A model generated the notes under the pieces. It was not told the origin of the DNA. It made no database searches and saw nothing but the letters and a program-made list of their open reading frames with translations. From positions 1,027,966-1,054,171 of the forward strand of contig WELB01000001.1 in NCBI GenBank assembly GCA_009602725.1: 26,206 nucleotides of DNA, given 5' to 3'. Both the position numbers and the translations under genes were made by a program. Origin of the DNA: Spirogloea muscicola (lineage: Eukaryota > Streptophyta > Zygnematophyceae > Spirogloeales > Spirogloeaceae). Positions within the stretch are counted from its first letter, which is position 1; every line of letters begins with the position of its first letter. Positions 1,948 to 22,437 of this stretch are shown here, piece after piece.

Positions 1948-4700
1948 TCACTGAGTCAGCTCGGGAGCGAGGTCCTCAAAGTACTTAATGGCCGTGTTGA
2001 CGTCCTTGTCTCCGCGACCGCTGCAGTTGACGACGACCGTGGTGCCATCAGCAAGCTGCGGGCAGAGGTACTCGAGGTATGCAAGCGCATGTGACGTCTC
2101 CAGCGCCGGAATGATGCCCTCCAGCCTCGCCAACCTCTGAAAGGCTGCAAGAGATTATGGCCAAACAACCAGCTGATGCCTAAGTGGTGACCACTGCCAG
2201 AAAGCAGCACAGATCTTAGACGAGCTCAGTGACAACTGCCTGCATGCGGGAGGACGAGCCGGATGCAGCAGTAGAAAGGAGGAGAGAAGATGGCGAGGAG
2301 AAAGGCCAAGAGTGCTGGGGAAAGACAGAAGAGAGGGTGGAATGAGGACCTTCCAAGGCCTCCTTGTCAGTCACGCTGTAGTACTCAGCGCGCCCAATGT
2401 CTTTGAGGAAGCTATGCTCCGGGCCTACGCCCGGATAGTCCAACCTGCAGAGGTTGAGCTCGACATTGTGACCAAGCTCTAGTCTTTGAACATTGTGGTC
2501 GCAAGAAAAGACGTTGCTTCAAGCAAGACATCGGTAGGCAAGCTAAGTGCTAAATGTACAACATGTGCTGACAGTCTGTGAGAGCGCAGGTCCACTAGCA
2601 CTGCATCAACAGCGGCTGCAGTGGTGAGCTCACCCAGCAGAGATAGAATGCGGCTCCACGACCTGGCCCTCAGCGTCCTGCAGCAGGTAGCTCATGGCGC
2701 CATGCAGCACACCGACTTGGCCCTTGGTCAACGTTGCCGCGTGCTTGTCTGTGTCAACGCCGTGGCCGGCCGCCTCCACACCGATCATGCGCACGCCTTC
2801 GTCCCCCACAAACTCGTGGAAAAGACCCATGGCATTGGACCCACCACCCACGCACGCCACCAGCACATCCGGTGCCCTGCCAAATTTCTCGATCGCCTGC
2901 CACAGTAAACAGCCTCAGCTTTGACACCCGCAGGAGCAACTGGCACTACATGCTGTGGCTTAGGACAAGCATTGGGGAGTTACATCAGCCAAAATCTACC
3001 ACTTTGACCTTTAAACTTTAAGCCCTGGAATAGTATCCTTCAGCTGCTCATACTCAACAAGGAAAGGAGACTATCAGGGTGTATCAGATAGGTAACAAAG
3101 TAGCACACTTATACAAGCGCCTACGACAGACCCACTGACTAGGCGCACCTGACGGCGGGTCTCCTCGCCAATGACGGCGTGAAAGTCGCGCACAAGCATG
3201 GGGTAGGGGTGTGGGCCAGCGACTGAGCCCAGTATATAGTGTGTTGTCTCCACATTAGTCACCCAATCACGAATTGCCTCAGACGTTGCGTCCTTAAGAG
3301 TTGCAGTGCCAGCATGCACCGGCCGGACCTCCGCACCGAGCAGGCGCATACGGAAGACGTTGAGCGCCTGGCGCTCCATGTCTGCCGCACCCATGTACAC
3401 GACGCACTCGAGGCCGAAGCGCGCACACACCGTCGCCGTCGCTACGCCATGCTGCCCAGCGCCCGTCTCCGCAATCACGCGCTTCTTCCCAATCCGCTTG
3501 GCCAGCAGCGCCTGCCCAACCGCGTTGTTGATCTTGTGCGCGCCCGTGTGATTGAGGTCCTCGCGCTTGAGGTACACGAGAGGACCGCGGCCACTCTGGC
3601 CTGCGTAGTGTTCCGTCAGACGCTCTGCAAAGTACAGCGGACTCTCGCGCCCAACATAGTCCTTGAGAATACCCCGCAGCTCCGCCTGCCGAGGAGGAAG
3701 GTAAGCAGTGCAGTGGTGATATCAGCTGCAATACCCAGCAGCCATGGACTCTACACCAGTGAAACTCGTATACACATTTTCATCTGCATTGATAGTGATC
3801 TATGAGTCTTGCTATGACTAAGAAGGTACTTCAATTGCATGTCTGGGGCTTGATCAAGCTCCCATTCTTAAGCCAGAGTTGGCATTGGCGGACCTGGAAC
3901 TTGGGGTCGGCAACAGTCTCGCGGTACACCTTCTCAAGGTCGGCGAGCGCGGCCATCAGCGTCTCCGGGACGTACTTGCCACCAAACTTGCCAAAGCGGC
4001 CCGATGCATCGGGCCGCTGGTGGCCCGTCGCCTGCGGCGGCTTGTCGGCTACAGTGGCAGCTGCCGCAGGCGGCCGATCGGCCGACACAGCACAGCGAGT
4101 CACCACGGCGCGACTCGCCACACTGCGGCGGCAGCCGCTGCTTCGTAAGGTGGTGGCCGTCCTCGGCGCAGTGCGCACAAAGGCGGATGCAGAGGAGGAG
4201 CAGGACGCCAGCGGCGTGCCATCGTCCTCCAGGAGCCTGGAGCCCTGCAGAGGTGCGCCGGCACAAGGCGCAGATGGGCAGGGAAGACGAGCAAGTGTTG
4301 CTCAGGAGGTGCTCGGAGGCTGCATTCGGCTGTGGAAGAGCAAGTGTTGCTCAGGAGGAGCTGCAGGACTGCATCTGAAGCTGGGGGCTGTAAGGGGCGA
4401 GGGGAGTGAGAGGAAGATTGTTTCGGGGAGGGAGAGAAGGGTCACGAGAGGCACAGTAAGAGAGGGAGGGGGAGAGATAGGGAGGAGAGAGGGAAGGGAG
4501 GGAGGGAGAGGAGGGGCTACAGGGAGAGAGAAGCAGGAGATGAGGAGAGACGCGGGGAGAAGAGGGAGGAGGGAGAGAGGGCGGGGGCGGGCAGATGGCA
4601 AGGCCAGCCTGCCGCTAGGCGCACGCACCTGGCAGCGGCGCGGCGCGGCCGCCGAAGACGCCGCCGCCGCCGGCCGGAGCAGCGCGCCGGCGCGCTCCAT
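1948..4700 (-). CDS. TSB: Tryptophan synthase beta chain, plastid type
   Basis: Catalyses indole + serine to tryptophan with pyridoxal phosphate, probably in the plastid. Six exons on the minus strand: 4700-4629, 4244-3894, 3685-3149, 2896-2634, 2444-2350 and 2144-1948. All have GT-AG borders and matching phases, and total 504 aa. The ATG at 4700 starts a 24-codon Ala/Arg-rich exon that joins in frame to further Ser/Ala/Arg-rich sequence, a likely transit peptide. The mature protein begins near [16 protein letters not shown]. The PLP lysine is K192 in HTGAHKINN; the catalytic glutamate is E214 in AETGAGQHG; the phosphate-binding loop GGGSNA is residues 337-342; NCSGRGDKD lies near the C-terminus. 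Plant enzymes are about 470 aa, so the length fits with a long presequence. Exon 1 could be questioned because no in-frame ATG exists upstream in exon 2, and an 'n' sits 6 bases before the chosen start. The enzyme identity is certain. Confidence 0.97.
4289..4358. repeat. Two 21-bp direct repeats, each a GAGCAA/TTGCTC hairpin, in trpB intron 1
   Basis: The 21-base unit starting GAGCAAGTGTTGCTC occurs at 4289-4309 and 4338-4358, 49 bases apart and identical. Each copy begins with a 6-bp inverted repeat around a 3-base loop. Both lie in trpB intron 1 (4245-4628). Nearby sequence is partly duplicated too (GCTGCATTCGG versus GACTGCATCTG). Confidence 0.85.
4378..4600. repeat. Purine-rich tract (pyrimidine-rich on the gene strand) in trpB intron 1
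   Basis: About 220 bases on the plus strand are almost all G and A, with recurring GGGAGAGAG and GAGGGAGG words. In the sense of trpB this is a C/T-rich stretch filling most of the first intron. Such mirror-like tracts can form triplex DNA; that is inference. Confidence 0.85.
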
Positions 4701-6147: not shown

Positions 6148-6930
6148 GTGAGAACGACCTCATGGATGGGTGCCCTTCAGTCCACCTAGCGAAAGTGCCC
6201 TCCAAGTGATCCAACTTTCCTCTCCACAGCAGAATAGCGTGGACTCTCCCTCGGCCAAGCTCTCACCCCATCCAAGCCGAGGCTCTTGCATTTAATCAGC
6301 CCAAGATGCACGGGCGACCAGCCAACCACGCAAGCCCCACACAGCGATCGGCTGCACAAGGTGAGCATCGTGCACGAGGAGAGCACCAGGATGACATGCG
6401 GCAGCAGTGGCTTCGACAGAGCAAGGACACCTTCTACACGAGAAGACTACTCTAAAACTGATCGCAAACAGGCACTGAGGCCATCATAGCCATGCACAAC
6501 AGAAGCACCAATCTATCGCCTGGCCGGCCCAGAGAGGCTGGAGCCCAATATGAGGCGGCATACCGGTGCTGCTCAGCCAGAGCAGCGCAGCAGCATCAAT
6601 TGGAGTGTCAGATGTTGAGGCTGTGCGCCTGCATAATGCAACTTCTGAACAGCTGGTGCAGGAGCTCTTTTGTGTATACATCATCATTGTTCTATCAAGC
6701 CTGTTATGTCCTCATCTTGTCAGTTGCATGGCTGGCGAAATGAGGCAGCCTTTCTTTGCCTAATGAAGGTTCTGCCTCTAAAGCCCTGGTGGGCGGCACT
6801 TGACAAAGCAGTAGGTACTGTGGCACGGCAAGGTACATTGCTGCGAAGCAGTGAGGTGGGAGTGTGAAGCCTTTTCCGTCTGAATTTGACAATCTTGAAT
6901 TCAACAATCTCATGGGCTACAAGTGTGAGC

Positions 6931-6970: not shown

Positions 6971-7841
6971 GCATCAGATCCATAATTGGAGTCCCTGTCT
7001 GGGGAACTGGCTGCTTACTCAATGTTCTCTCCTTTTCCTGAACAATGTATTGGCTTGAATTGGCCTCCCTTTCAATTCATGCGCCCCGCGCGCCTTCTCT
7101 CTTTCTTGAGGAAGAAGCAGCTCTTCCAAAGGGGGCGAGGGCTGTGAAATGCCAGCCCACAAAATAGAGAACACGGTCCCTGATCTCTGGTCCCCTCAGC
7201 TCTCACGAAGAGTTGACGTCCACCTACGTGTCACTTTGCTGCTCGGTTGACTTCTGATTGCCATCCAGCCATCGAAACGAGCAGTTGCGACAACGGGGAG
7301 TAATGTGGAGCACTATTAGAATACAATTGTGCACTTGATTCAGCTCACACATAGCAGCAAGTGCGCTTGTTCAAACAGGATGCCGGGTTGCATGCCCGCG
7401 GAACTTCAACGTGCTAACGGGCGGACGAGGAAAGGCGCGGGGTGTGCATGAAATGGCATGGCGGCCAATTTACTAAAGCCAACACCAATGTTCTGGGCAA
7501 GGCTTAGGAGAGTAGGGCACATTTTGGGGGGGACGTAGACGGTCGCCGTTACCGATCGCTGGTGGTTATCTGTCGGCCTGCCGACAGGGCCTGGCCTCGC
7601 CGCAGCCGCCGCCTTCGCCGCCGTCGCCGTCGCCGGCGGCGGCGGCGGCGGCGGCGGCGGAGGAGGCCGCGGCCGCCATGGCCCTCGCGAGGCGCCTGCG
7701 ACTGCGCGCTCAGCTCACGGCTCACGAGCGACTGATACTGATGAGGCGAGACCAAGACGAAGCAAAGTACTACCAATCCGCTTGACGAGCAAAAGATCGT
7801 CAAATAGCCACTGGTTACCAAGCAGTCAGTCAGAGCTTTGN

Positions 7842-9915
7842 CGGCGGCGGCGGCGGCGGCGCGTGCGCCAACACACTGCAAGGGCGGCACGCGCTCGCCG
7901 ACGACCGGGGCTACGTCTGCCGCCGCGAGGACGCGGACGCCGCCACGGGCTGCTGCCCCGCCGCCGGCCCGAGGTGCGCACACGGCGCAGGATCGATTCC
8001 CACGCCGCACATAGACACCAGCAATTGCTCACAGCCGCACCTTTTGATAACGTTGTTAAGCAGCTCCTCCTGTGAGCTGCTCCGTGTGGGTGCCCATTTC
8101 TTGTTGCTTTTGCGCACGGATCCAGAATCATATAACGAGAATACTGAAGACCTCTCTAATGGGCTTTGAAGAGATAGAGAATTTCAGAGATCTATAGGTG
8201 ACTTGCAAAGGGGTATAGTGTCTTCAGCGGCCTCTGTCGGTAAGGGAGCGCCTGCAGCACCGCCTGCTGCTGTGTGCCCGCAAAGTGCAGAGTGCCCGCA
8301 AAGTGCCATGAAGGAGCCCTGAATTGGTTCCCGGTGTGAGGCTGGCGGCGCAGGTTCAATTGCCGCGGGTGCAACGCCACGCTGGGCTGCTGCCTCGTGT
8401 ATGAGACGTGCGTGGCGTGCTGCCTCGACCCTGCTCACACAGCGCTGGATTTTGCACTCAAGGCCATGCGGGCGAAGCAGGTGCGGTGCGCCCTCCCGAC
8501 AAGCTGCGCGTGAGCCAGCTGCTCTCATCTACTGGTCGACTTGAGCATAATGTCGGCTGTTGATCGATTTCCGGCCGGGGACCTGGCCTGCTCAGTCATT
8601 CACTCCGTCACCAGTATGTTGCGGCAAATACTTGCCACAACAATACCAGCACACAACAAACCAAAGATAATAAGCGCACTTCCACGTTGGGCTTGTACAT
8701 AGAAGGTGAATTGGAGTTTCCATCCAGGCGAGGGTCACTTTGCAATCATTTGTCCTTTAAGGCTGCCTGTCTTCTGGCCACTTCAAAATATTGAGTTGCT
8801 CGTTCAGTAGCAGCCATCTGCAGGGACGTACCAGAGCGTGTTCGAGTACTGCCGCGGCCAGTGCCGGCACAACTCGCAGGTGCGAGGCAGGGCAAGTTTA
8901 CTGGACTGGCTACAGGAATTCTGCCCTGCGTGATTTTTGCATTGGCAGGTGCAAGCTTCTCTCTAGGAGGTGCTTTTGGATGCACATGCTCCGTGGGACC
9001 CTTACTATATCCGGAGATGGCTGCGCCATGTTCATGCAGAGTGTGGTCCACGAGAACGCGTATGCGCGACCTGACCACCACTGCTTTCGACCACTGGAGA
9101 TCAAGGCTGATGATGCAGCGGCCAATGAGGACGAGCTATTGGATGTATCTGTGGTAGTTGCATCCCAGGTCTGTCAACCCTCTGTACGGGTCACAGAGAT
9201 CCTTCTTGTGTGCTGCTTGCTGTCCTCTCTGAGTTTCCCAATTAGTACGCTGCTATGTTCTCCCCTGGGTTAAGCAATCTACCAAGATGCATGTCACCAA
9301 GATGCATGTCGTCCCCCCAAATATTTGCATGATAAGCTTGGTGATGTGCAATAAAGACAACCCCTACCTTAACACCTTCTTAGAGGGCGATTGGCTGTGT
9401 GGGTTTGACAGGGGCAGTCTTGCGACCTGGCGTGCCTGACGGTGGGCCGGCAGTGCGGCCTCACAAGGCTTGCCGGGCTCAACAAGTGCTCCGTGATGCA
9501 GAAGCACTTTGATTGCAGGTGTCTGACGACCAGCCTCTCTAGTACAGGAAGCAAAGCGCTGGCATGAGGAGCTTGGAGCTTGCCATCTGTTGTAGTTGTG
9601 GTTGTCCTATGTGTTGGCGGGTAGAGTTGAGAGGAGCTCTGGCGCCCGCTTGGTGGTGCCCTTGCTCCCAGTTGTTGACCTACAAGCTGCAACATGTGCC
9701 ATGCCTGATTGAGACCTTGGCACGCTTTGGCCCAATGCAGGGGCAGCTGCATCCAGAGCCTTGGCAATGATCAGCCGGCGGAGGTGGTGGCTGGCGCGCC
9801 GCGGCACCAGTTCCCCGGCGCCTGCATGCTGAACTCCAAGGAGGCCTATTTCTCCTGCCAGGGGTTCCACCCGAACACGCGCCGCCTGTGTCCCTGCGTC
9901 ATGGCTGAGAGCTAG
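7842..9915 (+). CDS. SPRING1: SPRING1/C12orf49 (DUF2054)-type cysteine-rich secretory-pathway protein, plant architecture, 5' partial
   Basis: Animal SPRING is a Golgi/ER membrane glycoprotein that promotes site-1 protease maturation and SREBP activation. Exons with consistent phases: (start unknown, after n at 7841)-7973, 8354-8480, 8811-8879, 9040-9168, 9412-9518 and 9741-9915 (TAG). Visible blocks in order: C-x-NTLQGRHALADDRGYVC with ATGCC in exon 1; FNCRGCNATLGCC and YETCVACCLDP in exon 2; YQSVFEYCRGQCRHNSQ in exon 3; SVVHENAYARPDHHCF in exon 4. These cysteine blocks are the family signature. Exons 5-6 add a second cysteine-rich module: GQSCDLAC, LNKCSVMQKHFDC, DQPAEVVAGAP and NTRRLCPC. 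As I recall, plant members have this module and animal ones lack it. The N-terminal signal or anchor is not resolved: the sequence left of the n is a different frame and base composition. No single ORF is longer than about 60 codons, so ORF-based calling would miss the gene. Confidence 0.88.
8274..8306 (+). repeat. 15-bp direct repeat in SPRING-like intron 1
   Basis: GTGCCCGCAAAGTGC occurs at 8274-8288 and 8292-8306, period 18, within the intron 7974-8353. Confidence 0.85.
9281..9310 (+). repeat. 15-bp tandem repeat in SPRING-like intron 4
   Basis: ACCAAGATGCATGTC occurs twice in tandem (9281-9295, 9296-9310) inside the intron 9169-9411. Confidence 0.9.
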
Positions 9916-10467: not shown

Positions 10468-13285
10468 TCACCCAAATGTTTGTCGGATGACATCCCTCTG
10501 AGCGTCTGTGAGGGAGTCTGGGAAGTCTATGTCAAATGTGACATAGAGGTCCCCCTTCTTGTTGGACTCGTACTTAGGCATGCCCTCCTTGGCAATCTTC
10601 CTCACTTCGCCTGGTTTTGTGACGCCCTGTGATGCCACAGCAAGTCTACATTCAGCTAGCTGCAGGAGATGCGGCTGAAGTAGTAAAGGGAGAAGAGCTT
10701 AGATAGCTGAATGGGATCCTACTCATACCTTGGTGCCAATTTTGACTTGGTGGCCATCCAAGTGCTCCATCTCGTGCTCAAAGCCAACAAGCGCATCCAC
10801 CTGGAGAATGTCCACTTGCCTCTTGACTGAAAGCCGAATAGCACATGGCCAGACTAAGATGGCCTCTGAGCAATGTTGCATGTGCACTTATGTGAATGCT
10901 TGAACTTGCATATGATTGCAGCCAATTCTTTGACAAAGACTCACCAAGGTAATGGAGTGCCGCATGGCTAAGTTGTCTCCGTCTCGGTGGAACGTCCTGT
11001 GTGGTCGTGTCCTGATCACAAACTGCACAAGCAGACACGGTGATATATGAGCAGGTGAGCTGCACAGAAATTGGATGGAATGCTGGAGTAAGCCCTCCTT
11101 CAGATATGCTAATGTGAGAAGGCATGACGACTGTTATTTCTTTCCATATCACGTCAGATCTTACAGGGGCCAGGGCGCTCTGCTGTTCTCGTCATGCTTC
11201 CCTCACACACTCCTCAATGCAGTGGTGGTCAAACATGATTGCTCACCTTCAGGTCCCCTGGATCACCATCAGCAATCGGCTCTCCCTCGTCATAGAAGAC
11301 TATCTCCTATAAAAGTAGGATATTGACAATGACCTGCTGATCAGTGTGTGCAGTGTGGACCAAGACCATGTGAAACTGCTGCAAGCCCCATGTATCAGAC
11401 TCTTTGTAATGCTTACACTTTGATACACGCACTGGTCTGTGTACCATCAGAAGCAGGCTGTCAAAGTTGGAGTGCAATGTGCAAGTCCAGCACGTGGCCA
11501 TTCCTATTACCTGGCCATCAGTCATGCCCTTCTCAATATCAACTTGGACCGGGCCTTGCTCCCTTACTAGCTTGATGTTGGGGCAGTCCTCACAAACCTG
11601 AAGTCCAGCATGACCAATGACTTTCATTAATGAAGCAGTTATAAGTTGCAATAAGGTTGCCACGGTGCTGATAGAGGATGTTCAGCCAGTCTTGCAGATG
11701 TGTGACCCTTTATTACTGCTGTGATTAAGGTGGTAGTGGAGACAACTGTACCTGCTGAGCAAATTGCTGGAACATGCCTGGTCCAATCTGCTTGGTGACC
11801 ATTTTGTTTTTGCAGTTACATTTCCTCTTCCCAGGGGCTGGCTTGAACACGTTCTTGTCTCGCCACATCTGACCAAGCACTTTCTGCCGCTCAGATGGTG
11901 TTCTCAATACTACCGCAATGACTCGCCTGTGCATCTCCACCTGACGAGCTACAGACAAGAAGAGAGCCTATGTATTACATGTACATGATTACATTGTGGA
12001 GCAGACAAGCAGTGTAATCTCATACCCTGAAGGTAGCGCCCCCGTAAAGGTCCTCCAGCGTAGCCTCCAGCTCAACAACAACCTCATCGCCTTTTGGTAC
12101 CTTCTCTTCCTCCTCTTCTCTTTGACCACCAAAGCCAAAGTTCATACCCCCCCCAAAGAACCTGATGCCGAAAGCCACAAATATGCTCTGAAGTGCTCTG
12201 AAGCCCTTTGTTTGTGAGCCCTCAAAGGCATGCTACAGGATCAAAGGGCATTCCATCAGACAACTCTTTGTGTGCCTGGAGCATAGTCACATACACGGTT
12301 TGTAGCACAAATACAGCTGAAGAATGGACTCACTGGGAAAATATGTCCTGTGCAAAGCCTCCGCCCCCTCCTCCCCCTCCTTGCTGAGCATGCTGCTTCA
12401 GTCCCTCCTCCCCGTATTGGTCATAAATCTGCCGCTTTTCCTTGTCAGAGAGGATCTCGTAGGCTGGAAAGAGCAAGCAGCACAGAGAAACATTGTCACA
12501 CGAGGTCAACCCTGCCTTCAAATAAAGGATGGAGGCAATTCATGATGTGAGAAGGCTGACTCAGCCTCCCTCTGACAGTTCTGTGACAGCAAGCCCAAAT
12601 TACAGTGAGATGCCATTCACGTTCCACTCAAGAGCTTTACAGATTGAATGCCTGCCACCTACCGTTACTGATCTCAGTGAACCGTTTGCTTGCTTCTGCA
12701 TCATCAGGGTTTTTGTCCGGGTGATACTTCAATGCCAGCTTCCTGTATGCTCTCTTTATCTGCTCCTCTCCAGCAGACTTTGATACTTGCAGGACATCAT
12801 AGTAGCTCTTCCTGCCAAGCATTAAGGAGACCATTATTGACTATCAGCCTGTTTCTCTCCACAGTCCACCAAATTCAGTTCAGCAGATGAGGCGCTGTCT
12901 GTGCAAGCTCTTCAGCTAAGTGGAGTCAGCTACACGAACTACAGTGGTTGTCTTTCAGATTCTCAGCTCCCAGAAGCGGGGTCAAAGACGTTGCTAAATA
13001 GTCATTGCTTGCTACATGAGAACCCAAGTAAGCCTCAACTGTCAAGGTACAGGGATGTGCAGCTAATGGGATCAGAACCACGTCGACGCAGCAACGATCA
13101 GATACTTGCAGGCCCTGTCTAGCACACGACTCCGAAGTTGAGAGCTGGCTCCTTCTACGTTGACGGAACGTGCAAAATCACTAGCGGTCTGAGTGTCTTG
13201 TTCCTCACCCTGCGAATGTCACCTCCACGAGTGTAAGGAGGGCTGCAAGGCATAAGCAGAGCGCGAACGGCCGCGCGATCCGCAT
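10468..13285 (-). CDS. ERDJ3B: ER-luminal DnaJ/Hsp40 co-chaperone ERdj3 (DNAJB11/ERdj3B)
   Basis: Recruits and stimulates the ER Hsp70 BiP and binds unfolded secretory proteins. Ten exons on the minus strand: 13285-13209, 12811-12663, 12463-12334, 12161-12026, 11868-11752, 11597-11511, 11306-11247, 11022-10945, 10800-10729 and 10626-10468. All phases agree; total 354 aa (human DNAJB11 is 358). Exon 1 encodes a signal peptide: MRIAR, a hydrophobic core [14 protein letters not shown], then VTFAG. It joins to [14 protein letters not shown], the J domain, with HPD at residues 56-58. A glycine-rich linker (eight G) and [12 protein letters not shown] follow. Then come the paired-cysteine insert typical of ERdj3 (KRKCNCKNK and VCEDCPN, not the four-repeat zinc finger of DnaJ), the C-terminal beta domains ([31 protein letters not shown]) and [12 protein letters not shown] near the end. 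No KDEL signal, as usual for ERdj3. Exon 5 is set at ATGTGGCGAGAC rather than the longer open frame upstream because that restores the family sequence. Confidence 0.96.
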
Positions 13286-14172: not shown

Positions 14173-17100
14173 ATGAAGAAGGCGGCGGAGAAGCCAAAGA
14201 AGCGGCCGCGGAGCGCGCGAGACGACAGCGTCGACGATGACGACCTGCCTCTGGCGCAGCGCGTCGCGCTGGCGCAGCAGGCCGTCCAGTCCGGCGGCAC
14301 GCAGAAGTGGACGACGCTGGAGCACAACGGCGTCATCTTCCCGCCGCCCTACAAGCCGCACGGCGTCAAGATGCTCTACGACAAGAAGCCTGTGGACCTC
14401 GCCCCCAGCCAGGAGGAGGTGCGCCGCGCTACATGGCGGCGTGCTCGTCGGGTCCTAACGAGCCGCTGCACTGAGCACTGTGCCAGGCATGGCGACGAGC
14501 CCTGCCTTGCTCACCAAGTGGCAGCTGCTGCGTGTGTGCCAGGTGGCCACCATGTTCGCCATCATGAAGGAGACGGACTACGCCACCAAGCCGGCGTTCA
14601 TCAAGAACTTCTGGCACGATTGGCGCAAAATCCTGGGCCACAAGCACGTCATCCAGCGCCTGGACCTCTGCGACTTTGAGCCGATTTGGCAGTGGCATCT
14701 GCGGGAGAAGGAGAAGAAGAAGGAGATGACGTCTGAGGTGAGCAGGCGCTTCGCGTGTGCGCCAGGCACTCGCGGCAATCCTTAATCTGGCAGGCTGGTG
14801 GCCAGGTCATGTGTGTGGCATGCGGTAGTAGTGCTCGGAGCTGGAAGCCGATGGATGAGGGGAAAAGCTGGGCATGTGACGGATGTGCCGCCATGCAGAC
14901 GGAGGCAGCTGTGGGATTCTGAGCAAGTGACAGCGTGCATGCTCAATGGGAACTTCCGAGGGCAGATTGGCAGCTGACTCGAGGTTTTTTGGGACTGCCG
15001 CTTGCTGCAGGAGAAGAAGCGCGGCAAGGAGGAGAAGCTGAAGATGGAGGAGAAGTACATGTACGCTGTCGTCGACGGCGTCAAGGAGAAGGTCCCTCTT
15101 ACGACTCACTCTTCTGCTTGCCAACTCCTAGTCCACAGTCTCTATGGAGTTGGCAACCCACTTCACTCGGTCCCTTCTCAGATCCCCCCAACCCCCACTG
15201 CCCCCCTCCCCCGCTTCGTCCCAACTGCCAACACCCATTTTCCCTTCTCTCAGTTGGTGAGTTGGTGGTGCTGCCAGAGCTCGTAAGGAAGTAGCTATGC
15301 AGCTCATGCGCTACTTGCTGTCTAACCCAGGTTGGCAACTTCCGGGTTGAGCCTCCAGGACTCTTCCGAGGTCGCGGCGAGCATCCCAAGGTTGGCTGGC
15401 GCTCACTGCTCCGGAGTCCATGATATAGATACATGCCGAGTTGCACATGTCTGAATCTGCATGTAGATGCCCTGTGCATTGTGGCATGTAGGAGGTGAGC
15501 TACATTTGTTGTTTTGAGACAGTTTTGCCGTGCTGCACACGCTTGCGGTGCCTACTTTTTGTAAAGCTTTGGCTTTGGCGCTATTCTGCAATCTGTGAAT
15601 TTGTAGATGACAAGAATCCCTCCCTTACCAGTATGTTCCATTCCTCATCCAGATGGGCAAGTTGAAGAGAAGAATACAGCCGGAGGACATCACAATCAAT
15701 GTTGGCAAGGGAGCGCCTGTCCCAGACTGCCCAATCCCTGGACACAAGTAGGTACCTTTGCAACCACCTCGCACCTTCTGCTGAGATTCCATCTGCAACA
15801 CCAGCTCTGAACACGACAAATCGTACCCATAGATCTTACATTCGTCGACCCACCTCAGATTTGGGTTATATGTGAGGGTGTTAATCGTCTGTCATTGCTC
15901 ACCGTGCCCGTGAGCAAGGTGGAAGGAGGTCCGCAGGGACAACACAGTGACCTGGTTGGCATTCTGGTCCGACCCTATCAATGAGAGGGAGTTCAAATAC
16001 GTATTCCTAGCTCCAAGCAGCGCGCTTAAGGGCCAGAGTGACAAGGAGAAGTACGAAAAGGCCCGTGGCCTCAAGGTAAAGTCTGGACATATCCACAGAA
16101 CAGTGAATGATTTTATCGTTGCGTGATTATATTGCTGCAATGCCCATCAGCTGGCCAAGTAGCCAGGATGGCAAAGTCAGAGGAAATAATCACTCTTTCC
16201 GGATGTAGGAGCTGATTTTCCAATCCTGTTGCAGAACTACATTGCAGATATCCGAAGAACATATACCAAAAATTTTGATGCAAAGGATATGACCAAGAAA
16301 CAATTAGCAGTGGCAACATACCTCATAGATAGACTGGCCCTTCGAGCTGGTAATGAGAAGGTGTGTGCTTGCTTGATCCTCTGGCGAGCATCGCAGAGCA
16401 AGTTGTGTGCTATGTGACTTAGGTTAGTCAGTAGAACCTGCTAACAACTGAATATCGTGATTTGATTATGCTATTCAGTCTGAATAGGTCATGTATCCCT
16501 CAGATCAAGCTTAGTCTTGTGGATTGAACTTCTGATTCATCAAGCATCTCTCTTACACGGTTCACACTTTCTGGCTGCTGACAGGACGAGGATGAAGCTG
16601 ACACTGTAGGTTGCTGCTCATTGAAGGTAGAACACGTAAAATTGATTCCACCCCATTCTTTGCAGGTAAAGTTTGACCATAAGCTGATCTATCCCACTGA
16701 GAAAGGCCCAATCAACAGCTATGATACCTTTGTCGTGGTTCATGCTCTTGTTTGATGCCTTGGTGCGTTTTCCACTCTTTCCTTGTCAAATATGGCGTCG
16801 TTCTCAGTTGGAAATCGCCGATCTGAACCTTCCGCCCATGTTGCTCACTACTGAAAATGAATGCTTTCTGCAGTTTGACTTTTTGGGTAAGGACTCCATA
16901 AGGTACTTCAACACCGTTGAAGTGGAGCAGAAGGTGTATAGGTGTGTAGGCGAGTTTCAAAAAGGTGCGGACTGCTGCAAACAACTTCACTGTCACAAGT
17001 CTGACATAGCTGTGGCTTAGGGTTGGCTTGGCCTCAGCCCTCCCCATTCATCACTTTGCTGAGTGGCCCATGATTTTCTTGCCCTAGTAAGCATAACTCG

Positions 17101-18593
17101 TGCTGAGCACTGTACATTCAGGCTTCAGCTGCTCAATAAATCAGACAGGCTCACAAGACTTCCAAGCCGGCACTTGTCAGGAAAGAAAGTTGATGTGGAC
17201 CTATTTGATAGGATTAATACGTCCTCCTTAAACACTCACCTGAAGGAGATCATGCCTGGCCTTACCGCCAAGGTCTTTCGTACCTACAATGCTTCTATTA
17301 CCCTTGATGACTTGGTGAGTGGACAATGTACACAGGAAACAAGTGGCCCTCCTGTTCACCAGATGTCCCAAGTGGCCCTTAGCTTCAAGTCTGTCATGAA
17401 GCATGGAGCTGCAATCTGGTGCTTCACTTATGGGCTGATCTCACAACAGCCGCTTTTCTGGCAGGCATTCTTGTTTGCCTTCCTAATAAGTGGACTCTTA
17501 TGCAGTTGCAAAGCACAGACGGTGGGTCATTGGCCGAGCGTTTGGCGAGCTACCAGAGGGCAAATAAAGAAGTTGCCATCTTGTGTAATCACCAGCGGAC
17601 AGTGTCCAAGAGTCATGGAACACAGATGGAGAAACTAGCCGGAAAGACGAGCGAGCTTCAGGTATCAAAGTGGACATTTTCTGGTCGCCTCACAATTGTA
17701 ACTCTGACTTTCTATACGACAATATGAGTGGATCGCCTGAGCTTCAAGTCATTGAACTAAAGCCTGCTCATTTGCACAAGTTCTCATGATTGTGAGTGTG
17801 CCTGCAGACTCTGCTAGCTGAACTAGAAGTAGATTTGGAGAGAGCAAAAAAAGGAAAGCCGCCTCTACAGAAGCCTGGCGGCACTCCCAAGAAAAGTATG
17901 AGTGTTGAGTCGTGAGTACACTTGACATGATCCCACTGGCCTTTATCATGCTAGGGGTACTGGCCCTGTATTCACGGCACTTCTAATGGGGAGCTTGCTA
18001 TCTTATGTCAGTGTTACAGGTTGTGAAGGTTACTAGAGTGAATAATGTGCTGGAAGCAGTAGCCCTCGTGTTAGGGTGCTGACTGGTGCCTCTGCTTCAT
18101 CTGCAAGCCTGACAATCGACCTTTGGGTGGTCCAGGCTGGAAAACAAGATACACGCCGCCAAGCAGAGGATGCTGAAGATGAAATTGGACATGGCAGTCA
18201 AGGATGACTTGAAGACTGTTGCCCTAGGCACCTCAAAAATCAATTACTTAGACCCAAGGATTACGGTGGCCTGGTGCAAGTTGCACGAGGTCTCCATTGA
18301 GAAGGTGAGGGTGGCTAGCTATAAAACAAGGCCCTAAACCTTAAGTCGCCAAGGTGCCCGTGCAGTTACTTATGCGTAGTCTGCACTGCTAATTTGAGTT
18401 GTCTATGTAAGCCGAAAGCATGGATGACTTGTCGGTCTGTAGCAAGATTGTGGTCTGTGATCCTTGACAGCAGAAGGCTGCAATCACTGCAACATGCTGA
18501 CATTGATCGGAGCAATCTCTACAGATATTCAACAAGTCGCTCTTGGGCAAGTTCGCATGGGCTATGGATGCTGGAATGGACTATCGATTTTGA
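14173..18593 (+). CDS. TOP1: DNA topoisomerase I (type IB)
   Basis: Nuclear enzyme that relaxes supercoils by transient single-strand nicking. Fifteen exons: 14173-14418, 14543-14737, 15011-15091, 15331-15390, 15653-15747, 15919-16075, 16235-16360, 16585-16635, 16666-16737, 16874-16964, 17181-17314, 17506-17661, 17808-17911, 18136-18304 and 18525-18593. Phases agree throughout; total 601 aa. The catalytic pentad is complete: R315 (LALRAGNEK), K367 ([11 protein letters not shown]), R425 ([12 protein letters not shown]), H465 (CNHQR) and the nucleophile Y560 ([15 protein letters not shown]). Core landmarks include [32 protein letters not shown] and [12 protein letters not shown]. The C-terminus ends [13 protein letters not shown]. 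The lysine-rich linker between H465 and Y560 is present. The N-terminal domain is only about 40 residues (basic KKRPRSAR, then acidic), against roughly 200 in animals. Either it is truly short, or an upstream exon was lost at the n (14108). GC content at third positions falls sharply from exons 1-4 to later exons. Confidence 0.97.
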
Positions 18594-19522: not shown

Positions 19523-20459
19523 TCAGAAGATGATGTCCGCATCCTTGCTGCCCAGGAGGGACTCATATGCGTCATGCAGCAGGCCCACCACGCTGCTCTT
19601 GGCCGGCTGCTGCTCCCCAGCAGCGGCCTCCCGCGCCGCCTGCGCCTCAGCAAAGGCCTTGTTCTTGGCCAGCTGCTTGTCAGCCTCGCGCTTCTTGTAG
19701 GCCTGCACCTTCTTGAGCCGGAAGAAGTCCTCACGCTCCAGCTCGTCCAGCTCGCCCTTGATGTAGCTGATGGTGTTCTCCAGCCTCGGCTTGACGACGT
19801 TCTCGAGCGCGTTGACGCGGCGGTTGGTGGTCTTGATGGCCTCGTCGAGCGTGAGGAAGGACGTCTGCAGCGACGCGAGCTCGACGAGCAGCTCCACGGC
19901 GCGCACAAACGCCGAGCGGCAGAGCTGGACCTGCTGGCCGCCACGTGCCAGGCCCGTGAGGTCGTTGCGCGTCTCGCCGGCCTCCGTGAAGTGCTCGAAC
20001 TTGGGTATCTTCACGCCCGCCACGTTCTCCTGCCGCGCCCGCACCTTCACCGTCGCCTGCAGCGCCGCAGCAAAGCGGCCTCCCTCGCTGTCAGGTCGTC
20101 GCGGCGCAGGACGCCCACAGACGTGCAATGCCCAATGTCGGCGCTTACATGAGATACCCAGCAACGGGGTCCGACGCCCCTACCTGCTCCACGTTCTCGA
20201 AGACGACGTGCTTGATGTTCTCGCCGCCGGCGTACTTGGCCTCGGTGAGCGCGAACGCCGAGTCCTTCATGACGGCGCCCATGGACTCCTTGGCCTCCAC
20301 GATCTTGCGCAGGATCTGGCGGAACTGCATCGTCAGCGCGTCGCTCTTCTTCTTCAGCAGCTGGTGGCCCTTGGTGGCGCCCACCAGCCGCGCCTTCACC
20401 ACGCCCAGCACCGTCACCGTGGGCACCACGTTCAGCCGCTGCCCGCCGCCGCCCGACAT
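19523..20459 (-). CDS. VHA-D: V-type proton ATPase subunit D
   Basis: Central rotor-shaft subunit of the V1 sector, which couples ATP hydrolysis to proton pumping into vacuoles and Golgi. Two exons on the minus strand: 20459-20184 (92 codons) and 20056-19523, joined in phase 0; 269 aa, against about 261 in plants. It starts MSGGGGQRLNVVPTVTVLG. It keeps the conserved blocks GATKGHQLLKKKSDALTMQF, NDLTGLARGGQQ, LASLQTSFLTLDEAIKTTNR, RRVNALENVV and ISYIKGELDELEREDFFRLK, and ends in DADIIF. The long helices at both ends would form the antiparallel coiled coil of the shaft. An Ala/Glu-rich insert before the tail is less conserved. Exon 1 is GC-rich. The gene shares its upstream region with TIM23. 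Confidence 0.96.
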
Positions 20460-21141
20460 CGCCCCCCGCCGCCGCCGCGTCACGGCCGAGCCCTCCGGGC
20501 CATGCTAGCGGCGGCGGCGGCGGCGGCGGCTGCGGCGGCGCGACTGGCGCCGGGAAACGCGGCGGGAGGAAGTGGGGCGCTGGCAATGATGGCTAATAGC
20601 AGCTCCGCGGGGACCTTAGCGACAAGTAAACTGGGCGTTAGCGCCGAGCTCCACACGCTGAGCGGGCCTCGACGGCGGGCCGTCTGGACCGGCCGTTTGG
20701 GAGGCGTCACGCACCGCGCCAGAGGTAAGCGGCGGGAGCCCCCCGTTAGCGCCGGTTACGGGATGCCCGCTCGATAGCGGGACTGTTCCCTCGCCGCCCG
20801 ATGCCTCCATCGGGCGGTTTTCGGAGGTCCCGCTTCCCGGCTCCACGCCAGACCCCCCCCCCGCCCTCCCACAGTTGCTTCCTCGTCCCGGCGTCTCATC
20901 GCCTCCCAGGCCGCCGCCACCGCCGCCGCCGCCGTCGCCGTCGCCGCCGCCGCCGCCGCAACCGCCAGCCAAAAAAAAAAAAAAGGCGCCCGCGGCGCGG
21001 CGCCTGCGCAGCTGGGCGCCGCGGATCTCGCAGCGCCGAGTCGGCCGTCGGCTCCGGGNGCCGAGCCGGCCGTCGGCTCCGGGCCTCCGGCGGCCGCTCG
21101 CGCTGCGGCGTGTGTGCCGAGACCGCGTCCTCGAGGCCCAG
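20460..21141. promoter_or_regulatory. Divergent promoter region between VHA-D and TIM23
   Basis: About 680 bases, very GC-rich, with GCG repeats at 20510-20540 and CCG repeats at 20910-20965, then a run of 14 A near 20970-20983. CGTTAGCGCCG occurs at 20636-20646 and 20744-20754. Two hairpins lie at 20766-20817. An n at 21059 is bracketed by 24-bp near-identical direct repeats. Long ORFs crossing here on both strands are low-complexity artefacts. Confidence 0.5.
20766..20821. other. Pair of GC-rich hairpins, the second followed by TTTT
   Basis: Hairpin 1: CCCGCT (20766-20771), loop CGAT, AGCGGG (20776-20781). Hairpin 2: CCGCCCGAT (20794-20802), loop GCCTCC, ATCGGGCGG (20809-20817), then TTTT (20818-20821). 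Both stems are perfect. The second looks like a bacterial intrinsic terminator, but the context is a eukaryotic promoter or leader, so a role in the TIM23 5' leader is only a possibility. Confidence 0.6.
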
Positions 21142-22437
21142 ATGCAGGACGAGGCGCGGGAGCCCGGCGGCGGGTCCCCCGCCGCCGACGGCCCGCGGCG
21201 GCTGTACAACCCGTACGCCGACCTATATGGCTCCGTGGACCCCAAGTCGCTGCAGAACGCGTACGCGCTGCCGTCCGCCCCCGAGTTCGTGTTCCACGAG
21301 GAGGCTGCCGTCCAGGTAATGTGCACCACCGCCTGCGGCCCACCTTCTCGCCCCTGCTGGCTTTTCAGAGTTCATCCTTTTCATTCCTCCCTCTCCTTCC
21401 CCCCCCCCCCGCGCTTGCCTCTTCGTTCCCCTTTCCTTTTCCTCTCTCAGTTATGCACTCCAGCTCCTCCTCTTCTCCTAGTTTATCTTGTCAGTCTCTT
21501 TCCCCTCCCTTTTCCTTTCCTCTCACTCCCTCCCGTCCCCTTCTTGTTCTCTAGATCCTCCCTCTGTCATCCCTCACCCTCTCCCTTCTCTCGCCCCTTG
21601 TAAGATCTGCCTTTCTCATGCTCCTTCCTCTCGTCCTCCTTCCTTCTGCCTCTGAGTCCCATCTCCAAGATGTCCCTCTTCCTCTCTTGAACGCTCCTTG
21701 CCAATCCCCCTTCCCCTTCCTGATATAAAATTCCACTTGCTATTCACTCTGCTATTTGCAGGTGCTTCTCTCCTGTCCTCACCTCATCCCACCCTCTATC
21801 CTCTCCTCTCTCTGCCTGCGCCCTCCCTGACGATCTCCCCTCTTGATGACCCACCAACTCTCGCTCCCCTCTTTCCCCATCCTCTTCCTGCGAGTTTGCC
21901 CTGCCTCCCTCTACGTCGTTCTCCCTCTCTCCATTTGCTTTTGTTCATGTCTTTCTCCATCTTCATTGCTCCAGCCCAGGAAGGAGCTGCAATCTGACTG
22001 CAGGCTTTTCTCACCACATGTGGCAGCGGCGGAACTGGAGTGACAATCTGACATACTATACGGGGTCTGGCTACCTGCTGGGTGCAACGGGGGGCGGCCT
22101 GCGCGGCGCGCTGGAGGGCGTGCGGTCGCGTGAGGAGGGTGACACACTCAAGCTGCGAGTCAACCGGGTGCTCAACGCGTCCGGCCATCGTGGGCGCGTC
22201 GCAGGCAACACTCTTGGCGTCCTTGGCCTCCTGTATGCTGGCATGGAGTCAGCGACGGGCCACTTCCGTGGTACCGACGACTACGCTAATAGCTTCATTG
22301 CCGGCTTGGGCACTGGTGCACTGTACAAGGCCGCTGCTGGCCCACGCACCGCCGCCATCGCCGGCGCTGTTGGCGGAGTGGCTGCCGCTGCGCTCACTGC
22401 CAGTCGCCACCTTGCCAAACGCTATGTCCCACTTTAA
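21142..22437 (+). CDS. TIM23: Mitochondrial import inner membrane translocase subunit TIM23
   Basis: Forms the presequence translocase channel of the mitochondrial inner membrane (Tim17/22/23, PRAT family). Two exons: 21142-21315 and 22027-22437, phase 0; 194 aa, against about 188 in plants. The N-terminal part contains RRLYNPYADLYGSVDP and LPSAPEFVFHEEA, like the intermembrane-space segment of plant TIM23. Exon 2 starts RRNWSDNLTYYTGSGYLLG. It carries four Gly/Ala-rich membrane segments (near GYLLGATGGGLRGAL, GNTLGVLGLLYAGMES, FIAGLGTGALYKAA and AAIAGAVGGVAAAALTA) and the PRAT-type sequence LKLRVNRVLNASGHRGR between the first two. It ends KRYVPL. The ATG at 21142 was chosen because the sequence upstream is low-complexity and holds an n; an earlier start cannot be excluded. 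The 711-base intron is strikingly pyrimidine-rich. Confidence 0.94.
21364..21995 (+). repeat. Pyrimidine-rich tract filling the TIM23 intron
   Basis: More than 600 bases on the sense strand are dominated by C and T (CCCTCTCCTTCC-like words and a run of C near 21401-21410), with few purines. It lies wholly in the intron 21316-22026. The open reading through it is a result of low stop-codon density, not coding. Confidence 0.9.

Follow-up and report, generated by a model that had tools for sequence, protein, structure and literature searches.

Does a green alga, a member of a lineage not known to have SREBP, encode a relative of SPRING, the factor associated in animals with site-1 protease (S1P) and SREBP cleavage, and if so, what might the protein do there? 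The question arises from a window of 26,206 nucleotides, the whole stretch of DNA analysed here, from the zygnematophyte Spirogloea muscicola. An earlier note, made from the letters alone, had proposed a plant-type SPRING1/DUF2054 gene hidden in six small exons, followed by a second cysteine module that it regarded as uncharacterised. We find that the gene is real and clearly belongs to SPRING1, as a variant whose tail is of the type found in N-acetylglucosaminyltransferase V (GnT-V, MGAT5).

Gene model

The six small exons join in frame on the + strand (7842-9915) to give 244 amino acids and a stop codon (TAG at 9913-9915), with no stop or break of frame across them and with GT-AG borders at 5/5 introns; the 5' end of the gene is open at 7842. 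We infer the splicing from homology and reading frame. The exons are as follows, with residue numbers of the algal protein and their human counterparts.

Exon 1, 7842-7973, + strand: ACANTLQGR..GYVCRRED..GCC; start of the SPRING1 domain, 5' end open; carries R28 (human R95)
Exon 2, 8354-8480, + strand: FNCRGCNATLGCCLVYETCVACCL..; cysteine core of SPRING1
Exon 3, 8814-8879, + strand: PSAGTYQSVFEYCRGQCRHNSQ; carries R104 (human R174)
Exon 4, 9040-9168, + strand: SVVHENAYARPDHHCF, the end of SPRING1 with V110 (human V180); an acidic linker; VSVVVASQ, where the GnT-V-like match starts
Exon 5, 9412-9518, + strand: GQSCDLACLTVGRQCG..MQKHFDC; first half of the module resembling the GnT-V C-terminal domain
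Exon 6, 9741-9915, + strand: SCQGFHPNTRRLCPC; second half of the GnT-V-like module; MAES, then the TAG stop

All of the sequence blocks quoted in the earlier note are present in this model. Those of SPRING fall in exon 1 (NTLQGR..GYVC), exons 1-2 (GCC..YETCVACCL), exon 3 (C-x3-CRHNSQ) and exon 4 (SVVHENAY), and those of the second module in exon 5 (GQSCD..MQKHFDC) and exon 6 (RRLCPC). Exon 3 is placed at 8814-8879 because its acceptor, TAGCAG/CCATCT, preserves the frame; the strong-looking acceptor ten bases downstream (CTGCAG/GGACG, 8823) was ruled out, as it breaks the frame with exon 2. In a scan of unspliced frames, exon 1 alone matches the Pfam SPRING1 profile (PF10218) at E 6e-6 over bases 7861-7965, and the unspliced stretch 8301-8480, which comprises exon 2 and part of the preceding intron, matches it at 1e-5. 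Three of the five donor sites of the gene, at 7974, 8481 and 8880, read GTGCG.

The two domains meet within a single exon. SPRING1 is matched as far as base 9087, and the match to the GnT-V family profile (Glyco_transf_18, PF15024) starts at 9145, both inside exon 4, so that the fusion is independent of the choice of splice sites; the junction of exons 5 and 6 in turn falls inside the GnT-V-like module. The fusion is known here from one gene of one genome.

The open 5' end deserves comment. A single N at 7841, bordering a CGG repeat, directly precedes exon 1 and leaves it open, so the gene does not start at position 7842. The window contains four such single Ns (4706, 7841, 14108 and 21059), of which the first three adjoin GC-rich triplet repeats and the last lies within a duplicated 25-base unit (21035-21083). 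Those at 7841 and 14108 sit shortly upstream of the first matched exon of the SPRING gene and of a topoisomerase I gene, respectively. The single Ns are probably shortened assembly gaps, and the 5' exons of both genes may be absent from the assembly. A SPRING protein would be expected to carry a single N-terminal membrane anchor, with an RxxL S1P cleavage motif preceding the domain. The 5' end is interrupted at 7841, and a search of the + strand between 5200 and 7841 found no convincing ATG or membrane-anchor exon; a hydrophobic stretch at 6665-6721, LFCVYIIIVLSSLLCPHLV, was weighed as a candidate for the anchor but left out of the model, its open frame having no preceding Met. We presume that the algal protein has a membrane anchor, and the 5' end that would encode it, together with the stem, was probably lost at 7841 or is located further upstream.

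The SPRING1 domain

By hmmscan, residues 7-124 match PF10218 at E 2.4e-34 and 118.7 bits, against a curated cut-off of 22 bits, and the match covers columns 5-131 of the 131 in the profile. Searched with phmmer against the PDB, the protein matches the human SPRING chain of the S1P complex (8uw8_B) at E 9.7e-20, with 50 of 117 aligned residues identical (about 43%) and 36 of 102 at positions where neither sequence has a cysteine. The membership in SPRING1/DUF2054 put forward in the earlier note is thereby borne out, and the gene product is firmly assigned to the SPRING family. SPRING also goes by the names SPRING1, C12orf49, POST1 and UPF0454, and the earlier note uses DUF2054 as well.

Within the aligned stretch, 14 of the 15 cysteines of human SPRING are kept and human C115 is lost. 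Of the 15 cysteines reported for the human ectodomain (SPRINGecto), at least one is unpaired, and seven disulfides are predicted (PMC11231238). Because Cys115 is the sole one of the 15 missing in the alga, it may be the unpaired cysteine of SPRINGecto, a suggestion drawn from one algal sequence.

The residues that contact S1P are kept as well, with human R95, R174 and V180 corresponding to algal R28, R104 and V110 (3/3). Human numbering here is that of the 8uw8 chain plus 14, an offset fixed initially on the human C-terminus, with which all three named letters then fit. At about 43% identity, all three would be retained by chance in roughly 1 case in 13, so that their conservation is mildly informative. 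Mutants of SPRING at these positions are reported to show lowered or lost S1P pulldown or SPRING cleavage; R174 is effective singly, and for R95A and V180A the effect was seen together with a mutation of S1P (PMC11231238).

The C-terminal module

Here the earlier note has to be corrected, since the second module that it called uncharacterised resembles the C-terminal domain of GnT-V. Residues 144-239 match PF15024 over columns 469-557 of 557, at E 1.2e-6 for the whole protein; the score of 27.9 bits falls just below the family cut-off of 28 bits. Without its first residues, the module scores 24.1 bits (E 1.8e-5). The match extends to the end of the profile. The distinct PDB sequences matched by phmmer at E<=10 number six, namely one SPRING and five MGAT5; the MGAT5 matches are weak (E 0.03-0.04 with the whole protein, 0.2-0.4 with the module alone).

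The likeness lies in both the cysteines and the residues between them. All eight GnT-V cysteines in the matched stretch are kept, GQSC and SCxGxHPxxxRxCPC are common to the two, and identity amounts to 30 of 88 aligned residues, or 22 of 79 where neither has a cysteine. The algal module has ten cysteines, the eight shared ones and its own C177 and C190, and the protein ends five residues past CPC. GnT-V has two further cysteines after the matched stretch, without an algal counterpart. In the known enzyme, the C-terminal domain (G628-L741) contains five of the eight disulfides of GnT-V (PMC6107550).

Shuffled sequences were scored against the GnT-V stretch already singled out by the database search, with the number of families uncorrected, and the counts are to be read with that in mind. 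With the cysteines held fixed, 5,000 shuffles were made and 4,984 scored, and none of these reached the 20.2 bits of the real module; in a larger run two of 59,739 (60,000 made) equalled it, a moderate degree of exclusion of chance. When all letters were shuffled, none of 4,870 scored sequences (5,000 made) did so, the best reaching 10.8 bits. Against Pfam, PF15024 was matched by none of ten cysteine-fixed shuffles; one of the ten gave E 3.2e-5 with PF13947, another family rich in cysteine, and one of ten gave 0.039 with PF14843. Because one shuffle in ten gave 3.2e-5 with another family, an E-value of about 1e-5 is not decisive at this composition.

A 2017 survey offers independent evidence: it reports PF15024 genes from algae, ferns and some dicots, and describes those of plants as a single clade that is without the other GnT-V domain and is suggested to have lost GnT-V activity (PMC5225481). 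In its main text, PF10218 and DUF2054 occur 0 times. Given this report, cysteines that line up in the same order, the motifs GQSC and SCxGxHPxxxRxCPC in common and a match running to the profile end, we regard homology between the algal tail and the GnT-V C-terminal domain as highly probable. The catalytic GT-B domains of GnT-V are not seen in the visible protein, in which only the last 89 of 557 PF15024 columns match and the remainder is SPRING1 and linker. Since the catalytic domain is not visible, glycosyltransferase activity of the protein is very unlikely. By extension, the plant "GnT-V-like" PF15024 genes may be SPRING fusions, not failed glycosyltransferases.

Genomic context and searches for relatives

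Pfam scans of six frames (E<=0.01) place the following genes around the SPRING gene.

145-399, + strand: bHLH gene, with an intron (or stop) in the HLH loop, basic region SHSEAERRRRERINSHL and, by eye, an ACT-like stretch downstream
About 3146-3649, - strand: exons of a PALP (pyridoxal-phosphate dependent) enzyme
About 10519-12807, - strand: DnaJ-type (HSP40) gene with DnaJ and DnaJ_C domains, convergent with the SPRING gene
About 14302-18590, + strand: eukaryotic DNA topoisomerase I, several exons
About 19700-20405, - strand: V-ATPase subunit D, at least two exons
About 22051-22386, + strand: Tim17/Tim22/Tim23 family protein

The description of the gene as plant-type agrees with the nearby V-ATPase subunit D, whose closest PDB relatives are 7uw9 (216 bits) and 36qu (209 bits), with the next group at about 147 bits. 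The structure 7uw9 is from citrus, and the next group is animal and yeast; the scores support a nuclear genome of the plant lineage. The bHLH neighbour was considered as a possible SREBP. An ACT-like stretch is a feature of plant bHLH proteins, and by eye this stretch and the basic region SHSEAERRRRERINSHL look plant-type, not SREBP-type. No tRNA was found in the window by ARAGORN.

Scans of viral contigs brought up no relative. Among prokaryotes, 28 stretches matched the search pattern and a single locus (L001) was confirmed by tblastn; we attribute it to chance, the shared element being DDAAANED within a 489-aa bacterial open reading frame that appears by eye to be FAD-linked oxidase-like. 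PF10218 has no match in the genome of L001 or in 14 control genomes, although such a scan does not show absence.

In the literature, a 2020 paper presents SPRING as a determinant of SREBP signalling in animals (PMC7048761), and only SPRING proteins of other species are reported to have come up when its predicted CREST fold was used as a query (PMC11231238). Among the titles listed by our own literature search, none deals with SPRING in plants or algae. Such proteins may already have entries in protein databases.

Alternative explanations

Could the protein belong to the SPRING family and yet act outside S1P, for example as a Golgi cysteine-rich scaffold or as a redox or glycosylation partner, with the S1P role being an animal specialisation? 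Such a role would fit a lineage that is not known to have SREBP, and a tail that resembles a domain of a Golgi N-glycan enzyme. It would also fit the description of mammalian SPRING as limited to SREBP (PMC12419022). However, the residues important for S1P binding are kept, S1P is reported throughout Archaeplastida (PMC6713707) and mammalian SPRING is reported to affect a Scap-independent S1P/S2P substrate (PMC7048761), and we consider an S1P-independent role unlikely. The resemblance of the tail to GnT-V could alternatively reflect shared cysteine richness, with no true homology. The PF15024 score lies under its cut-off and the PDB E-values are weak, cysteine-fixed shuffles can match unrelated cysteine-rich families at E-values as low as 3.2e-5, and two of them equal the real score. 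Yet it took 59,739 such shuffles to produce those two, full shuffles stop at 10.8 against 20.2 bits, none of ten shuffles matches PF15024 and the real match reaches the last column of the profile. The alignment also includes, beyond the 8/8 cysteines, 22 of 79 positions without cysteine, among them those of GQSC and GxHPxxxRxCPC, and the 2017 survey is an independent record of PF15024 from algae, ferns and certain dicots (PMC5225481). Shared composition is thus a quite improbable account of the tail.

The remaining two concern the protein as a whole. That it is a degenerate or unusual GnT-V of glycosyltransferase family GT18 would be in keeping with the PF15024 match and with a survey that takes plant PF15024 genes as GnT-V relatives whose activity is probably lost (PMC5225481), but the match is confined to the last 89 of 557 columns, the visible protein has no catalytic part and is otherwise SPRING1 and linker, and a survey of microalgae places GnT V among the enzymes completely or almost completely absent (PMC7140410). 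This explanation is almost certainly wrong. Finally, exons of two genes might have been mis-joined, or the gene might be a decaying copy; splicing was read from DNA alone, and the 5' end is missing. Against this, six exons continue without a stop or frame break across five canonical introns, the two domains share exon 4, and exons 5 and 6 join within the module, all of which make mis-joining or decay very improbable. The favoured reading is a SPRING-family protein with a GnT-V-type tail that probably works with S1P.

Proposed function

In mammals, SPRING binds S1P, displaces its inhibitory A pro-domain and licenses the cleavage of SREBP2 (PMC11231238). A 2025 review holds that this licensing serves SREBP to the exclusion of other substrates of S1P, perhaps via Scap (PMC12419022), whereas the 2020 paper reports that without SPRING the processing of a Scap-independent S1P/S2P substrate is also reduced (PMC7048761). 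The statement of the earlier note that plant-lineage organisms have S1P agrees with a report of the protease, named SBT7, throughout Archaeplastida (PMC6713707), so that a partner for the algal protein is likely present.

We propose that the cysteine-rich (CREST) domain of algal SPRING would lie in the lumen of the Golgi/ER, where it would bind algal S1P and displace the inhibitory pro-domain as human SPRING does. The GnT-V-like tail might serve as an adaptor or stabiliser, for example by bringing a substrate to S1P. Candidate substrates include membrane-bound bZIP factors and peptide precursors. Activation of bZIP28 reportedly requires S2P and not S1P, to go by the title of Iwata 2017. Elsewhere bZIP28 and bZIP17 are said to require SBT7 (PMC6713707), and SBT6.1 is mentioned 63 times in a paper on CLEL peptides (PMC7162652). 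Of these steps, S1P binding is supported by the sequence comparison but not proven, licensing of S1P appears likely, and an adaptor or stabilising role of the tail is our conjecture.

Overall, we consider it probable that the gene encodes a plant-lineage SPRING1 member whose CREST domain most likely binds S1P and displaces its pro-domain, and whose tail probably shares ancestry with the C-terminal domain of GnT-V; the protein is very unlikely to act as a glycosyltransferase. A broader proposal, possible but doubtful, is that SPRING with a GnT-V-type tail is the general form of the plant lineage and that the published plant, fern and algal "GnT-V-like" genes are SPRING orthologues. The tail would then be an adaptor, contacting cargo or the S1P glycan that human SPRING apparently touches, and would choose substrates, a task proposed for Scap in animals; on this view SPRING would be older than SREBP control and would first have licensed S1P for other substrates.

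The presence in the plant lineage of a SPRING whose S1P contacts are conserved suggests that S1P licensing either came before cholesterol control or does not depend on it, and raises for plants and algae the question of which S1P substrates depend on SPRING. The tail ties the plant form to a domain that, in the searches performed here, is matched elsewhere only in an N-glycan branching enzyme, and fusion to SPRING may account for plant genes described as GnT-V without activity.

Comparison with known systems

Relative to human SPRING, the alga shares the whole SPRING1 domain, 14 of 15 cysteines and the three S1P-contact residues, and has Asn in place of Cys115. Human SPRING is 205 aa long (PMC7048761), and the alga adds a further module of about 100 residues. 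The match to 8uw8_B stops at chain residue 181 of 201, and none of the algal tail is matched in that chain.

That tail has its counterpart in GnT-V/MGAT5 (GT18, PF15024; PDB 5zic and 6yjq), whose C-terminal domain shares with it eight cysteines, GQSC and SCxGxHPxxxRxCPC. Unlike GnT-V, the algal protein has no visible GT-B catalytic domains, and it carries the extra C177 and C190. The plant, fern and algal genes of the 2017 survey, as described there (PMC5225481), resemble the algal gene in their Pfam domain, their plant lineage and the absence of the other GnT-V domain.
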